Source: an uncultured Eubacterium sp.
GTDB taxonomy: Bacteria; Bacillota; Clostridia; Lachnospirales; Lachnospiraceae
Reading direction: 5' to 3'
Length of the DNA: 64,000 nt
Assembly (NCBI GenBank): GCA_904420085.1
Contig: CAJFUA010000072.1
Coordinates: 1 to 64,000, forward strand
In this document: one piece after another, positions 912-11,670 of the stretch
Position numbering within the stretch: the first letter of the stretch is position 1
How the letters are laid out: each line of letters begins with the position of its first letter
Program-made: the position numbers and the translations under genes
Notes under the pieces: model-generated
What the model was told of the DNA's origin: nothing
What the model saw: only the letters and a program-made list of their open reading frames with translations
Database searches by the model: none

Positions 912-2546
912 TTAATCATCAATATCCATGCCTTCTGTTGTGTAGACTGTTCTCTTTCTTGCCATTTCGTCGTTTTCAAGATATTCATCATAGGTTGTGA
1001 TTTTATCAATTAATTTACCGTTTACAATTTCCATAATCCGGTTGGCAGTGGTCTGAACTACCTGATGATCTCTGGAAGAGAATAGCAGCACGCCCGGGAA
1101 TTTTACCAGTCCGGTATTCAGCGCGGTAATACTTTCCATGTCCAAATGGTCGGTAGGTTCGTCAATGACCAAAACATTTGAACCGCTTATCATCAGTTTG
1201 GAAAGCATAACACGGACTTTCTCACCACCGGAGAGAACTCTCACTTTTTTCACACCGTCATCTCCGGCAAAAAGCATCCGTCCAAGGAAACCGCGGACAT
1301 AAGTAGCATCTTTGTTTTCCGAGTACTGTGTCAGCCAGTCTACAATCACATCATCACAGTCAAAATCTTTTGTATTATCTTTCGGGAAATAAGACTGGCT
1401 GGTAGTAATTCCCCATTTATAGTCGCCTTCATCCGGTTCCATCTGTCCCATCAGAATCTGGAATAAAGTGGTTTTGGCAAGACCGTTGGAGCCCACAAAA
1501 GCGACTTTGTCTTCACGTCCGATAGTAAAGGAAATATCGTCCAGTACTTTTACGCCGTCAATGGTCTTTGAGAGATGTTCTACCGTCAGAACTTCGTTTC
1601 CGATTTCTCTTGCAGGACGGAAGTCAATGTATGGATATTTACGGCTGGAAGGGCGGATGTCCTCCAACTCGATTTTTTCTAATGCACGTTTTCTGGAAGT
1701 AGCCTGTTTGGATTTTGAAGCATTGGCACTGAACCGCTGGATAAAGTCCTGTAACTCCTTAATTTTTTCTTCTTTCTTCCGGTTGGCTTCTTTCATCTGC
1801 TTGATGATTAACTGGCTGGATTCGTACCAGAAATCATAGTTTCCGGCATATAACTGAATTTTGGCATAATCAATATCTGCAATCTGCGTACATACTTTAT
1901 TTAAAAAGTATCTGTCATGAGATACTACAATTACGGTATTTTCAAAGTTAATTAGAAATTCTTCCAGCCATGCAATGGCGTCTAAATCCAGATGGTTGGT
2001 AGGCTCATCCAAAAGCAGAATATCCGGATTTCCAAAGAGAGCCTGTGCCAGAAGAACTTTGACTTTTAACGTGCCGTTTAAATCTTTCATAAGACTGTAG
2101 TGATAATCGGTTTCAACACCCAGACCGTTTAAGAGCGTGGCGGCGTCTGCCTCGGCATTCCAGCCGTCCATTTCTGCAAACTCTGCTTCCAGTTCGGAAG
2201 CGCGGATACCGTCTTCATCACTAAAATCTTCTTTCATATAAATGGCGTCTTTTTCTTTCATAATGTCATAAAGACGCTGATTTCCCATGATCACCGTATC
2301 CAGAACCGTATATTCATCATACTGGAAGTGATCCTGTTTTAAAAAGGACAGACGTTCTCCCGGAGTGATAATGACTTCACCGCTGGTCGGTTCGATTTCA
2401 CCGGTTAATATTTTAAGAAATGTGGATTTTCCGGCACCGTTTGCACCAATCAGTCCGTAGCAGTGTCCCGGAACAAATTTAATGTTTACATCTTCAAATA
2501 ATGCCTTTTTTCCAAATCGCAAAGAAATGTTACTTGTACTTATCAT
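912..2546 (-). CDS. ABC-F family ATP-binding protein with one degenerate composite ATP site
   Basis: Two NBDs in tandem, no TM segments, linker between; GANGAGKST, LLLDEPTNHLD and LSGGEKVRVM motifs. Confidence 0.93.
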   Translation of the reverse strand: MISTSNISLRFGKKALFEDVNIKFVPGHCYGLIGANGAGKSTFLKILTGEIEPTSGEVIITPGERLSFLKQDHFQYDEYTVLDTVIMGNQRLYDIMKEKDAIYMKEDFSDEDGIRASELEAEFAEMDGWNAEADAATLLNGLGVETDYHYSLMKDLNGTLKVKVLLAQALFGNPDILLLDEPTNHLDLDAIAWLEEFLINFENTVIVVSHDRYFLNKVCTQIADIDYAKIQLYAGNYDFWYESSQLIIKQMKEANRKKEEKIKELQDFIQRFSANASKSKQATSRKRALEKIELEDIRPSSRKYPYIDFRPAREIGNEVLTVEHLSKTIDGVKVLDDISFTIGREDKVAFVGSNGLAKTTLFQILMGQMEPDEGDYKWGITTSQSYFPKDNTKDFDCDDVIVDWLTQYSENKDATYVRGFLGRMLFAGDDGVKKVRVLSGGEKVRVMLSKLMISGSNVLVIDEPTDHLDMESITALNTGLVKFPGVLLFSSRDHQVVQTTANRIMEIVNGKLIDKITTYDEYLENDEMARKRTVYTTEGMDIDD

Positions 2547-2792
2547 TTCGAAATCTCCTTATTCTATAGTTTTGTCAGGGAACTGTCCCGTCATACATAC
2601 TATTTGCTCATCAAAGTATAGCAGTTTTTAAGCATGAAAGCAATCATACATATCAGGGAAGGTGGAAAAAAATACAGTTTTTTCAAAATAAAATTTAATT
2701 CAACGGATAAATATGATATGATTACAAATATGACAAAATAGAAAAAGGGGAATGAGTACAGGAGTAGTTATATGACCGGAAAGGAAAGACAG

Positions 2793-4625
2793 ATGAAGCA
2801 ATTAGAAAATATGAACGTATATCGGGGAAATCCATTGACAATGGGAGCCACAGTGGTGGGAGACAGAGTAAATTTTGCCATTACGGCGAAAGTGGGAAGC
2901 CGGTGCGAAGTGGTTTTGTATGAAAAGGGACAGGACAAAGAGGCATTTCGCATTCCGTTTGAAAATACCCAGGTGATAGGAAATGTCTATGCAATGAGCG
3001 TATCGGGACTGGATTATCATAAATATGATTATAACTTCTGCGTCAATGGAGAGATTACCGTGGACAGGTATGCCAAGTCATTATCGGGAAAGAAACAGTG
3101 GGCGGTGGAAAGCCAGAACATTAAGGCTGCCATTGTGGATGATACCTTTGACTGGCAGAATGATGCACCCCTGTGTATCCCTTTTGAAGATACCATACTT
3201 TACAGACTGCATGTGAGAGGATTTACAAAACACGTCAGCTCTAAAGTAAAGCATAAAGGAACTTATTTAGGAATTGTGGACAAGATTCCGTATTTGAAAT
3301 CCCTTGGCATTACCATGATTGAATTAATGCCTGCCTATGAATTTAACGAAATAAAGACAGAAAAGGCAACTTCCATGCGGGGACAGTTCAGCATTGAAAG
3401 TCCTACGCTCAACTACTGGGGGTACACGGATGGCTATACCTTTGCCCCAAAGGCAGCTTACGCATTTTCCAATGAAGCAGGCGGCGAGGTCAATGAGTTT
3501 AAGTATCTGGTAAGAGAACTTCACAAAAACGGAATTGAGATATCCATGGAATTTTTCTTTCCTCAGGGAACAAACCCGAAAGAAATTCTGGACTGCCTGC
3601 ATTACTGGGTAATGGAATACCACATTGACGGTATCCATGTAAACTGCGAAGAAGCGGTAATGCATATGATACAGACCGACAATCTGCTCTGCACCACAAA
3701 GATTTTCACCTATAGCTTTGCCGCAGATACGGACTTTTACCACAGCAGTTCTGAAATGAGAAACCTTGCCAATTTTAATGATGATTTTATGGTGGCCGCC
3801 AGAAAATTTATCAAGGGTGATGAGGATATGCTAAACACCATTTCTTATAAAGTAAAAGCCAATCCGGCAGGAGTGACAGTGGTCAATTATGTGGCAAATC
3901 ACAATACCTTTACACTGTATGACTCTGTGTCTTATGACAAGAAATACAATGAATTAAACGGCGAGAACAATCAGGACGGAGCTGTTTACAATTACAGTTG
4001 GAACTGCGGGGCAGAAGGAGATACAAGAAAAAGGAAGATTATGGATCTTCGCAAAAAGCAGATAAAAAATGCATTGTGCATGGTGCTTCTCAGTCAGGGA
4101 GTACCTATGATTTATGCAGGAGATGAAATGTGCAACTCTCAAAAAGGCAATAATAATCCTTACTGTCTGGACAATGAAATTTCATGGACCAACTGGAACA
4201 CAACTGCCATAGCCAGAGATGTGCTGGAGTTTACCAAAAGTCTTATCCGGTTTCGAAAAGAGCATAAAGTCTTACATTTAAGAGAAGAACCAAGACAGAT
4301 GGACTATTATTCTTACGGACTGCCGGATATGTCCTATCACGGAACAAAGGCATGGTATGCGGATTTCAGTCATTTTAACCGACATTTTTCCATGATGTAT
4401 TGTGGTAAATATGCAATGGAAGAGGCAGGAAAAGATGAGGCGGATTTGTATATTGCATATAATATGTATTGGGAGAAACAGCAGTTTGGCATACCGACTG
4501 CCAGAAATAAGAAAACATGGAAAGTGGCTTTTTCTACCAGCCCGGAGCAGGAGACAGGAGAAATCGATAAAACTGTCAAAGTGCCGGGAAGATGTGTGAC
4601 TGTTTTAATCAGCGAGGAGATATGA
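2793..4625 (+). CDS. GH13 / glycogen-debranching-like (CBM48 + alpha-amylase fold) protein, predicted catalytically inactive
   Basis: GlgX/pullulanase-like architecture (YRLHVRGFT, GITMIELMPAYEFNE, NYWGYTDGYTFAPKAAYA, LCMVLLSQGVPMIYAGDEM); catalytic residues substituted. ATG at 2793 follows a purine-rich RBS; 2772 is an alternative start. Confidence 0.85.
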   Translation: MKQLENMNVYRGNPLTMGATVVGDRVNFAITAKVGSRCEVVLYEKGQDKEAFRIPFENTQVIGNVYAMSVSGLDYHKYDYNFCVNGEITVDRYAKSLSGKKQWAVESQNIKAAIVDDTFDWQNDAPLCIPFEDTILYRLHVRGFTKHVSSKVKHKGTYLGIVDKIPYLKSLGITMIELMPAYEFNEIKTEKATSMRGQFSIESPTLNYWGYTDGYTFAPKAAYAFSNEAGGEVNEFKYLVRELHKNGIEISMEFFFPQGTNPKEILDCLHYWVMEYHIDGIHVNCEEAVMHMIQTDNLLCTTKIFTYSFAADTDFYHSSSEMRNLANFNDDFMVAARKFIKGDEDMLNTISYKVKANPAGVTVVNYVANHNTFTLYDSVSYDKKYNELNGENNQDGAVYNYSWNCGAEGDTRKRKIMDLRKKQIKNALCMVLLSQGVPMIYAGDEMCNSQKGNNNPYCLDNEISWTNWNTTAIARDVLEFTKSLIRFRKEHKVLHLREEPRQMDYYSYGLPDMSYHGTKAWYADFSHFNRHFSMMYCGKYAMEEAGKDEADLYIAYNMYWEKQQFGIPTARNKKTWKVAFSTSPEQETGEIDKTVKVPGRCVTVLISEEI

Positions 4626-4705: not shown

Positions 4706-5485
4706 ATGTTACATGTATTGAATGAGAAAGGGATTGGAGCATTTATCAATTTAGAAAAATGGGGACTGAGCAGTTTCGTATTGAAAATCATTGCGGTGGT
4801 TACCATGGCGGCAGACCATTTGGGATTAATGTTTTTCAGCCATCATCATAGTCTTTATATTATCACGAGAGGAATCGGAAGAATCAGTTTTCCGATTTTT
4901 GCGTTTCTGCTTGTGGAAGGATTTTTTTATACCCATGACAGAAGAAAACACGGAATCCGGCTGGGGCTTTTCGCCCTGATTTCAGAGGTGCCTTACAATA
5001 TGATGTACGGCAGTTTCTTTGATTTGGGAAAACAGAATGTTCTTTTTACATTGTTTATCGGCTACATGATGATTTGGGCTCTTGACATTATTTCAAGATA
5101 TCAGATAAATTATTCTGAAAAATTATTAAACAGAATCGGTGCCACACGGCTTAACATGGTGTTGGAACTGTTTGTAATGCTGGCAGGCTTTGGTACGGCA
5201 TATTTTATAAAGAGTTCCTACTCTTATGCAGGGGTAATGCTTATCTTATGTTTTTATGTTTTCCGCAATCATCATATAGGTAGAGCCCTGTCCAATATGG
5301 TTTTTAATATGGGAATGTTTGGCTATGGTTTGCAATGGCTTGGGGCTTTTAGCATGATTCCCATTGCCTTTTATAATGAAAAACCCGGAAAATATCAGTG
5401 GAAATATTTCTTTTATGTATTTTATCCGGCGCACCTTTTAATACTGGTGGGACTAAAGATTATTTATCTCAGATATTTTTCCTGA
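4706..5485 (+). CDS. TraX family membrane protein (putative acyltransferase)
   Basis: Multi-TM; LKIIAVVTMAADHLG and RISFPIFAFLLVEGFFYT motifs typical of TraX. Confidence 0.85.
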   Translation: MLHVLNEKGIGAFINLEKWGLSSFVLKIIAVVTMAADHLGLMFFSHHHSLYIITRGIGRISFPIFAFLLVEGFFYTHDRRKHGIRLGLFALISEVPYNMMYGSFFDLGKQNVLFTLFIGYMMIWALDIISRYQINYSEKLLNRIGATRLNMVLELFVMLAGFGTAYFIKSSYSYAGVMLILCFYVFRNHHIGRALSNMVFNMGMFGYGLQWLGAFSMIPIAFYNEKPGKYQWKYFFYVFYPAHLLILVGLKIIYLRYFS

Positions 5486-5619: not shown

Positions 5620-7530
5620 ATGATATCAAAGTTTATGAAAAAGGCAGCAGTTTTTGGACTTACCATGGCAATGATTATCTCATCCATGGCGGTAACGGTG
5701 ATTACCACACCTACAAGAGTGAAGGCGGCACCTACCACAAGTTCTACGTTAGTATGGAGTGATGAGTTTAACGGATCAAGCTTAGACACATCAAAGTGGG
5801 GATTTGAGACCGGAACAGGAGCAAGCGGATGGGGAAATAATGAGTTACAGTATTATACGGACCGGACGGATAATGCATATGTTGCAGACGGTGCGTTACA
5901 TATCAGAGCGAAAAAAGAGTCTTATGGCGGTAAAAACTATACATCTGCCAGATTAAATACAAACGGAAAATTTACATTCCAATACGGTTATGTGGAGGCT
6001 AGGCTAGCGCTTCCGTCCAATCAGGGTATCTGGCCTGCATTTTGGATGCTGGGTGCCAATATCGGCAGTGTAGGATGGCCGTCATGTGGCGAAATTGATA
6101 TTATGGAAGCCATCAATGCAGAAAATAAAACATATGCCACCTGTCATTGGAACTGTAACGGACATGCAGAATATGGACAGTCCAGTGGAACATTCGACAG
6201 AACACAATATCATACATACGGCTTGCAGTGGGATAGCCAGTATATCCGGATGTTTGTAGACGGAAATAAAATTTACGAAATGTATATTGAGAATAATGCA
6301 GGTGATACAGATGAATTTCACAAGCCGTTTTACCTTTTGCTGAATGTGGCAGTTGGAGGAAACTGGCCGGGATTTTCCGTTGATGACAGCGCTTTTCCAC
6401 AGGAAATGAAAGTAGATTATGTAAGAGTATATCAGGAGAATCCGTCATATAACAGTTCTTCTTCCGGTAATGTTGATACAAATACCGGAAATACCGGCAG
6501 CAGTACGGATAATAATACATCAACTCCTTCTGCCGGCATGGGAATGGAGTATGCAGGCTCAGACACTGCTACGGCATATGTCAACGATTCTTCATGGACA
6601 GATATACACTATTCTGTTAATGGTGGAGGACAGCAGAATGTGCGCATGACCCAAAACGGCGAAAAAGCCACATATACCATTCACGGATTAAATGCAGGGG
6701 ACAGTGTGAAATACTGGTTTACCCATTGTAATACATCAGGATATGTAAAAGATACGGAAAGTTACACTTACATACATAACGGAAGCAGTTCTTCGGGAGG
6801 TAATAATCAGGGAAGCGGAGGCTCCACGGATGTCAATACAGCTTCTGGAAATATTTTCATTTATCAGGATATAAATTACGGAGGACGTCAGGCTTCTTTA
6901 GGTGAAGGAGATTATAATCTTGCATCTCTTCAGTCAAAGGGATTTCAGAATGATGATTTATCATCCATAAAAGTTCCTTTTGGATATAAGGTAACCCTGT
7001 ACAAAGATGACAATTTCCAGGGAGAAACAAAAGTGATAACCAGTGATACAAACTGGATTGGAAGTGATTTTAATGACGTGGTTTCTTCTATTAAAGTAGA
7101 GAAGGCTCAGTATCTTATTAAGAACCGTCACAGCGGTCTGGTAATGGATGTGGCATGGGCCAGCATGGAAAACGGTGCCAATGTGCAGCAGTGCGAAATC
7201 AATGGAAATGATGCACAGAAGTGGTATATTACGCAGAACAGCGATTACAGTTATACTATCACAAGTGTATTGAATAATAAGGCTTTAGATGCAGCCGGAT
7301 GGTCAAAAGAGCCGGGCTCTAATGTGATTATGTGGGATAAAGGAGACAATCAGTCAAACCAGCAGTGGTGGATTACGGAAATTGGAGACGGATATTCATT
7401 TATCCTAAATAAAAACAGCGAATTGTCATTGGATGTAGAAAACTGGTCCACGGAGAACGGTGGAAATATTCAGCAGTACGGATATAATGCACAGGCAAAT
7501 CAGCAGTGGCAGTTTATTTTGGCAAATTAA
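5620..7530 (+). CDS. secreted GH16 family beta-glucanase with C-terminal carbohydrate-binding, beta/gamma-crystallin-like and ricin-type beta-trefoil domains
   Basis: Signal peptide; GEIDIMEAI GH16 active site; two YxxxxYGG / YxDxxFxG crystallin-like repeats; QxW-type repeats (QKWYI, QQWWI, QQWQF). Confidence 0.9.
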   Translation: MISKFMKKAAVFGLTMAMIISSMAVTVITTPTRVKAAPTTSSTLVWSDEFNGSSLDTSKWGFETGTGASGWGNNELQYYTDRTDNAYVADGALHIRAKKESYGGKNYTSARLNTNGKFTFQYGYVEARLALPSNQGIWPAFWMLGANIGSVGWPSCGEIDIMEAINAENKTYATCHWNCNGHAEYGQSSGTFDRTQYHTYGLQWDSQYIRMFVDGNKIYEMYIENNAGDTDEFHKPFYLLLNVAVGGNWPGFSVDDSAFPQEMKVDYVRVYQENPSYNSSSSGNVDTNTGNTGSSTDNNTSTPSAGMGMEYAGSDTATAYVNDSSWTDIHYSVNGGGQQNVRMTQNGEKATYTIHGLNAGDSVKYWFTHCNTSGYVKDTESYTYIHNGSSSSGGNNQGSGGSTDVNTASGNIFIYQDINYGGRQASLGEGDYNLASLQSKGFQNDDLSSIKVPFGYKVTLYKDDNFQGETKVITSDTNWIGSDFNDVVSSIKVEKAQYLIKNRHSGLVMDVAWASMENGANVQQCEINGNDAQKWYITQNSDYSYTITSVLNNKALDAAGWSKEPGSNVIMWDKGDNQSNQQWWITEIGDGYSFILNKNSELSLDVENWSTENGGNIQQYGYNAQANQQWQFILAN

Positions 7531-10897: not shown

Positions 10898-10959
10898 AAA
10901 AATCAGTTTGTCGTAATGGACACCCATGTGTCTGACGGTTACGATGAACTGATTTTTTT
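10898..10959. terminator. bidirectional terminator, trpS / Pr6Pr protein
   Basis: AAAAATCAGTTTGTCGTAA...TTACGATGAACTGATTTTTTT long hairpin. Confidence 0.8.
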
Positions 10960-11670
10960 GTCTGTTTTTTTCTGTAGTTTTTGAAAGATTCCCCGTTGAT
11001 TCAAGAAACTGTCGGTAAATACAATAATAAAATTAACTGCAAGGAAAATGCCTACCAGAAAAAGAATATACAGAAAACATTTTCCATAGCCGATACTTTC
11101 GTAGTTTAAAAAGAAATAAGGATATTTAGGAACATTGATAAATTCTTCCGGGGCATTACACTGGCATCGGGTAAAAAAGCATACAATATAAATAAACGGA
11201 AAAGCTAACCATGTAAGGATATGATTCCATCGGAACAGCCCTTTGGGCTGAAAAAACAGCCAGTCCAAAATAAACATGTAAGGAACTACGTAGTGTGCAA
11301 GAATACTTTCTACGGGAAGCCCTAAAGAAGTCATCGTATCATCCGGCAGTATAATCTTGTGTTCCGAAAAATGGTAGACAAGAAAGGTACATGTAATGGA
11401 TGCCAGCGCCATTCCCTTAAAATAAATGAGAAGTTTAGAGCGTGTATCTTTCCCGGTAAAATGCTTGACTAAAAGGACAATCATAAAAACAAGACAGAAA
11501 ATATTGCTCCACAGTGTAAAAAAACTAAATTCATGGACATTTACATTTCTGTCATTCAAATCAAAGTGTATAAAAATTCCGGTGGCACAAATGATGATAA
11601 ATGTGATTCTGTATACTAATTCGAATTTGTGTTTCATTTCTAAAATCATGCCTTTCAATCCTTTTTCCAT
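10939..11670 (-). CDS. Pr6Pr-family integral membrane protein
   Basis: Six predicted TM segments; FSFFTLWSNIFCLVFMI and HYVVPYMFILDWLFF. Confidence 0.8.
   Translation of the reverse strand: MEKGLKGMILEMKHKFELVYRITFIIICATGIFIHFDLNDRNVNVHEFSFFTLWSNIFCLVFMIVLLVKHFTGKDTRSKLLIYFKGMALASITCTFLVYHFSEHKIILPDDTMTSLGLPVESILAHYVVPYMFILDWLFFQPKGLFRWNHILTWLAFPFIYIVCFFTRCQCNAPEEFINVPKYPYFFLNYESIGYGKCFLYILFLVGIFLAVNFIIVFTDSFLNQRGIFQKLQKKTDKKISSS

Follow-up and report, generated by a model that had tools for sequence, protein, structure and literature searches.

Homologues of glycogen enzymes that a lineage keeps without their normal catalytic role are already known, and GlgD, a regulatory paralogue of the ADP-glucose pyrophosphorylase GlgC, is one of them. 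Among debranching enzymes the closest described case is ISA2, a non-catalytic isoamylase paralogue (GH13_11) of plants and green algae that is retained across green plants and alters polyglucan structure without catalysis (PMC12510319). The activities proposed for ISA2 complexes on the polymer are masking, recruitment and nucleation (PMC12510319). ISA2 has lost the catalytic nucleophile, is anciently fixed and under selection, and contains a CBM48 domain, a barrel and a C-terminal sandwich (PMC12510319). The plant β-amylase pseudoenzymes BAM9 and BAM4 are likewise inactive amylase homologues, which regulate polyglucan breakdown (PMC8774843), but they belong to an unrelated, plastid enzyme family.

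Here we describe a comparable protein encoded in the window, a stretch of 64,000 nucleotides from an uncultured Eubacterium sp. of the Lachnospiraceae (Table 1). It is almost certainly a GlgX-like pseudoenzyme of this family without debranching activity, as judged from its sequence and those of its relatives. We propose, with a probability of about 60%, that it is a non-catalytic α-glucan-binding protein of glycogen metabolism derived from an isoamylase/GlgX-type debranching enzyme; from the sequence we infer both the glucan binding and the role in glycogen metabolism. The reading frame is open to the stop codon that ends at 4625, as the first-pass annotation had it, but its start at 2793 (610 aa) is one of two candidates: an upstream ATG at 2772 would give 617 aa, and a ribosome-binding-like stretch is found at both. 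No signal peptide was apparent in the protein sequence, and we infer a cytosolic location.

Table 1. Predicted pseudoenzyme gene, its domains and motifs, and adjacent genes in the window
Feature	Position	Strand	Basis
Gene for an ABC-F ATPase, transcribed divergently from the pseudoenzyme gene across a 225-bp intergenic region	912-2546	-	Window
GlgX/isoamylase-like predicted pseudoenzyme, no catalytic triad	2772..4625	+	ORF, family profiles, PDB relatives, alignment, AlphaFold model
CBM48 domain, residues 24-101	2841..3074	+	PF02922, 24.9 bits (cut-off 22.4)
N-terminal half of GH13 barrel, residues 157-261	3240..3554	+	PF00128, 41.8 bits
Conserved sugar-contact residues W216 and Y218 (equivalent to W222/Y224 of S. 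venezuelae GlgX)	3417..3425	+	99% and 96% in 82 members
Degenerate region I, residues 256-267, then ~44-residue deletion before region II	3537..3572	+	D261->E260, H266->Q265
Degenerate region II DGIHVNCEE, residues 286-294; N291 at nucleophile position (codon 3642-3644); then 12-14 residue deletion	3627..3653	+	Alignment
Degenerate region III KIFTYSFAAD, residues 310-319; Y314 at acid/base position (codon 3711-3713)	3699..3728	+	Alignment
Degenerate region IV NYVANHNTF, residues 372-380; N378 at stabiliser position (codon 3903-3905); H377 retained	3885..3911	+	Alignment
Most conserved block, residues 391-480 (NGENNxDG...WNCGxEG...GDE...GNNNxYCxDN), with E398, N462 and Y464	3942..4211	+	Conservation 0.66-0.80 per 30-residue block
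TraX-family membrane protein, directly downstream of the pseudoenzyme gene	4706-5485	+	PF05857

The GH13/GlgX-like scaffold recognised in the first-pass annotation was borne out by family profiles, an AlphaFold model (pLDDT 85.7, pTM 0.88) and Foldseek. With a CBM48 domain, a (β/α)8 barrel and a C-terminal β-sandwich, the protein has the GH13_11 fold (PF02922, PF00128, model and Foldseek). The top PDB matches of the model were rice ISA1-ISA2, Arabidopsis ISA1, TreX and GlgX (TM ~0.8), and among proteins of solved structure its closest relatives include no other types than these: plant isoamylase 1, Chlamydomonas ISA1, TreX and GlgX. ISA2 structures are thus among the matches, yet ISA1 and TreX match better. 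The extra N-terminal β-sandwich of ISA2 is absent; CBM48 starts at residue 24, so there is no room for such a domain. With GlgX, TreX and isoamylase (GH13_11) the protein shares fold, domain order, the WNCGxEG and GNNNxYC blocks, and the contact residues W216, Y218, E398, N462 and Y464. It differs from them in lacking the triad and active-site loops, in falling on a separate side of the tree, and in its score against the GlgX model TIGR02100, which at 319.9 bits is about half the curated cut-off of 640.9.

Alignment with about 60 relatives placed N291, Y314 and N378 at the positions of the E. coli GlgX triad D336/E371/D443. The remaining classical residues fared little better: R334 is replaced by H289 and the region I residues D261 and H266 by E260 and Q265, leaving H442 (H377) as the sole one kept, so that six of the seven GH13 active-site residues are lost. 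The absence of the whole triad had been claimed before, and the motifs cited for it are all in the ORF, ISMEFFFPQG at residues 257-266, MIYAGDEM at residues 446-453 and the others as in Table 1. The substitutions are real, but the change goes beyond them, because two loop deletions had been overlooked. Regions I and II are separated by 32 residues, against 76 in genuine GlgX (~44 deleted), and regions II and III by 20, against 32-34 (12-14 deleted), so the intact regions I-IV with their loops that characterise GH13_11 are not present. The triad positions were assigned by sequence alignment, and the AlphaFold model and Foldseek matches, which confirm the GlgX/isoamylase fold, speak to the fold only. 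Taking the confident model and its ISA1/ISA2, TreX and GlgX matches together with the trimmed spacings, the loops predicted to frame the catalytic pocket are lost while the fold is kept: the pocket has been dismantled on a standing barrel.

This state is a trait of a Lachnospiraceae protein family, which, like the recognisable CBM48 domain, had escaped the first-pass annotation. Among 102 classified members, 76 retain none of the triad residues, 25 retain one, one retains two and none retains all three, whereas all seven active-site residues are present in 22 of 22 genuine GlgX proteins in the same comparison. Such a pattern is neither chance nor a sequencing fault. Like ISA2, the family has lost the nucleophile and kept the fold; about 1% of members (L114, which lacks the other two triad residues) still have Asp at the D336 position, and L167 has kept the triad Glu together with the second Asp. 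The spacings defined by the deletions vary by only one or two residues across all classified relatives. Proteins of a short sub-clade (L109-L116, L121, L148, L166, L170 and L179) have about 560-590 aa, with one frame of 614 aa, and their region III is cut back further (e.g. TKIMHH).

In the S. venezuelae GlgX-acarbose structure, the -1 sugar is contacted by W222, Y224, H271, D342, E378, W380 and H449, and sugars beyond it by R212, E470, N534 and Y536 (PMC9530166). We mapped these contacts onto the pseudoenzyme through E. coli GlgX numbering, with exact agreement of the spacings. Across 82 members the equivalents of W222, Y224, E470, N534 and Y536 are kept in 94-100% (E398 in 99%, N462 in 100%, Y464 in 94%), whereas those of H271, D342 and E378 are kept in just 0-6%. 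The equivalents of D450 (20%), W380 (29%) and H449 (66%) are partly kept, and Arg212 has a conserved counterpart in none of the 82. Conservation reaches 90% in only 99 of the 617 columns. The outer residues predicted to grip glucan are therefore kept while the catalytic ones drift, and this retention is the main support for the view that the pseudoenzyme most likely still grips branched α-glucan, in line with the glycan binding suggested earlier; part of the conservation could be due to a structural role. Where S. venezuelae GlgX has Glu470, 99% of the pseudoenzymes also have Glu, whereas 15 of the 22 genuine GlgX proteins in the alignment (of which L089-L108 are from Lachnospiraceae) have Trp. 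A role in sensing cyclic-di-GMP, by analogy with the S. venezuelae protein, was considered and set aside on the published absence of the binding residues from TreX and E. coli GlgX (PMC9530166).

We suggest that a debranching enzyme which lost its nucleophile, acid/base, stabiliser and pocket-framing loops, and kept CBM48, barrel and outer glucan-contacting residues, would grip branched α-glucan and, by analogy with ISA2 in plants, act on glycogen by binding. It may hold chains, shield or present branch points, or dock enzymes of synthesis or breakdown (GlgA, GlgB, GlgP or a debranching enzyme). Against the glycogen-binding reading stand the lack of a glg operon context in 58 loci and the unconserved Arg212 counterpart.

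The distribution of the pseudoenzyme was surveyed by searching one genome from each of 250 Lachnospiraceae genera at a match threshold of E <= 1e-40. The search matched 202 genera, six of which carry genuine GlgX only, leaving the pseudoenzyme in 196 of 250 (78%). The 16 genomes with the weakest matches (1e-85 to 1e-40) were read individually and stronger matches in part; ten of the 16 have the pseudoenzyme, five have only genuine GlgX, and the sixth (G048) has a GlgX fragment. No working triad was found among the most divergent matches in 30 genomes. Beyond the family, a sample of about 390 genomes from its order and class yielded no pseudoenzyme (searches of 116 genomes of the order, some of them Lachnospiraceae, and 291 of the class). 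Three matches outside the family were rejected: they are C-terminal matches in frames of 703-744 aa, and a reading of two of them, L156 and L157, showed genuine GlgX whose motifs are intact. A phylum-wide TIGR02100 search is blind to the pseudoenzyme, since it failed to pick up even the genome from which the window comes, and informs on genuine GlgX only. Within the family, TIGR02100 detected genuine GlgX in 77 of 250 genera (78 with the G048 fragment; about 31%), type I pullulanase occurs in 56 and the glycogen synthase gene glgA in 242. Since glgA is nearly universal, its co-occurrence with the pseudoenzyme is uninformative.

These counts bear on whether the protein, like ISA2, is an obligate partner of a genuine debranching enzyme (GlgX or PulA), whose specificity or stability it would adjust within a hetero-oligomer of the two. 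Plant ISA1/ISA2 provides a precedent (PMC3787081), and the pseudoenzyme is commoner in genomes with GlgX (72 of 78) than in the others (124 of 172 in which GlgX was not found; Fisher p = 2e-4, shared ancestry ignored). In one case, L160 (3807-9738), genes for genuine GlgX, ABC-F, pseudo-GlgX and TraX form a head-to-tail, operon-like run, the only such arrangement seen and outside the 58 neighbourhoods described below, and in L161 the GlgX and pseudoenzyme genes are about 1.6 kb apart. Against this stand the 124 genera that have the pseudoenzyme without genuine GlgX, the window's own kind among them, and the scarcity of type I pullulanase, which together exclude an obligate GlgX partnership for most members. 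We therefore regard the partner reading as unlikely; such a partnership could exist in a minority of genera and cannot be the general role. The window's own genome carries glgA, glgB, glgC and glgD, but searches of it for GlgX and type I pullulanase gave no match; further GH13 enzymes are present, so some α-1,6 cleavage by them is possible.

The gene neighbourhood raises a second alternative, that the scaffold was co-opted for a task other than glycogen metabolism, such as sensing a small molecule or glycan together with its neighbours ABC-F, TraX, DUF5662 or a phosphatase-like protein. No homologue of glgA/B/C/D/P/X lies within about 5-6 kb of the pseudoenzyme gene in the 58 neighbourhoods, and the commonest context combines TraX or DUF5662 downstream with an upstream ABC-F gene that is either divergent or co-directional. 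The linkage is recurrent and tight: ABC-F is upstream in about 30 and co-directional TraX downstream in 20 of these loci, and the genes often overlap or lie 0-40 bp apart. However, the neighbours change between clades, as in housekeeping synteny, the alternatives being GluRS/PcrA, a periplasmic-binding-protein gene and a phosphatase-like gene, and the kept glucan contacts favour an α-glucan ligand. Recruitment away from glycogen thus appears improbable. In the ten short sub-clade loci with flanks (L109-L116, L121 and L148) the gene immediately upstream encodes a periplasmic sugar-binding-protein-like product (PF13407), and in other clades a different ABC-F, of 600 aa, is upstream and co-directional. 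Elsewhere in the window are a secreted-looking GH16 β-glucanase with CBM56, crystallin-like and ricin-lectin domains (5620-7530, plus strand) and a 243-aa membrane-protein-like ORF with no Pfam match (10939-11670, minus strand).

That the protein is an enzyme with an active site rebuilt from non-triad residues, acting on α-glucan or another substrate, seems to us very improbable. Several polar residues are strongly conserved (D286, D384, E398, D402, K310, R344, K348 and D350), and the two triad residues of L167 could be read in the same direction. Most of the conserved polar residues are, however, common to genuine GlgX and hence likely structural or binding, and positions 291, 314 and 378 vary freely (over N/V/L/K, Y/T/E/H and N/D/T), which is unexpected for a new catalytic centre. 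The conservation of N/N/Y in orthologues, proposed earlier as a check, thus does not hold for the identities themselves, although the complete triad is missing from all 102.

An unrooted tree, built by a quick method from the sequences of 64 pseudoenzymes and 25 proteins of the genuine GlgX type, has one branch with 100% SH-aLRT support that parts the pseudoenzymes from all genuine GlgX, including those of E. coli and a spirochaete. Recent decay of a resident GlgX was rejected as an origin, because Lachnospiraceae GlgX groups with the E. coli and spirochaete proteins, apart from the pseudoenzyme. The loss of the triad in all 102 members and the near-constant deletion lengths make a single old origin of the family likely, and an isoamylase/GlgX-type debranching enzyme is the best explanation for its ancestor. 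Close relatives differ by dN of 0.06-0.17 and dS from 1.2 to saturated, and dN/dS is 0.02-0.07 where dS can be estimated, indicating strong purifying selection. Intact, conserved frames (open in about 100 members), purifying selection and family-wide triad loss strongly support the earlier proposal of a pseudoenzyme maintained by selection. A decaying pseudogene or assembly artefact, which the fragmented assembly (156 contigs, 7.68% contamination) and one in-frame stop in a few relatives might suggest, is refuted by more than 100 relatives in the same state, with fixed deletion lengths and low dN/dS.

The non-catalytic, α-glucan-binding protein proposed here differs from ISA2 in its two active-site loop deletions, its independent origin and the usual lack of an active isoamylase partner. 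GlgD, also kept by the lineage without a normal catalytic role and present in the same genome, has another fold, serves another step and is encoded next to its active partner GlgC. Non-catalytic isoamylases were already known in plants; what is new is the bacterial family in Lachnospiraceae, of which we found no description in the open literature searched (subscription papers and preprints were outside its scope). More tentatively, it may be a family-defining bacterial pseudo-isoamylase that structures glycogen by binding alone, an independently evolved counterpart of ISA2 that mostly occurs without GlgX and that reconstructions of gut microbiomes have tallied among the debranching enzymes.

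Butyrivibrio hungatei has glgX1 (726 aa) and glgX2 (648 aa), both annotated as glycogen debranching enzymes (PMC5716241), and by its size glgX2 may be this pseudoenzyme. GlgX can be called permissively, as in a BLASTP survey with a cut-off of 20% identity (PMC10395257). With the pseudoenzyme in ~78% of genera and genuine GlgX in ~31%, low-identity calling likely overcounts debranching, and this capacity is probably over-annotated in Lachnospiraceae, where databases score the pseudoenzyme as a debranching enzyme. Glycogen storage has been proposed as a core gut trait, and Lachnospiraceae rank as a dominant family of the gut. The pseudoenzyme would also offer a bacterial system, free of the complexity of plant starch, for testing the effect of a dead debranching enzyme on a branched glucan.
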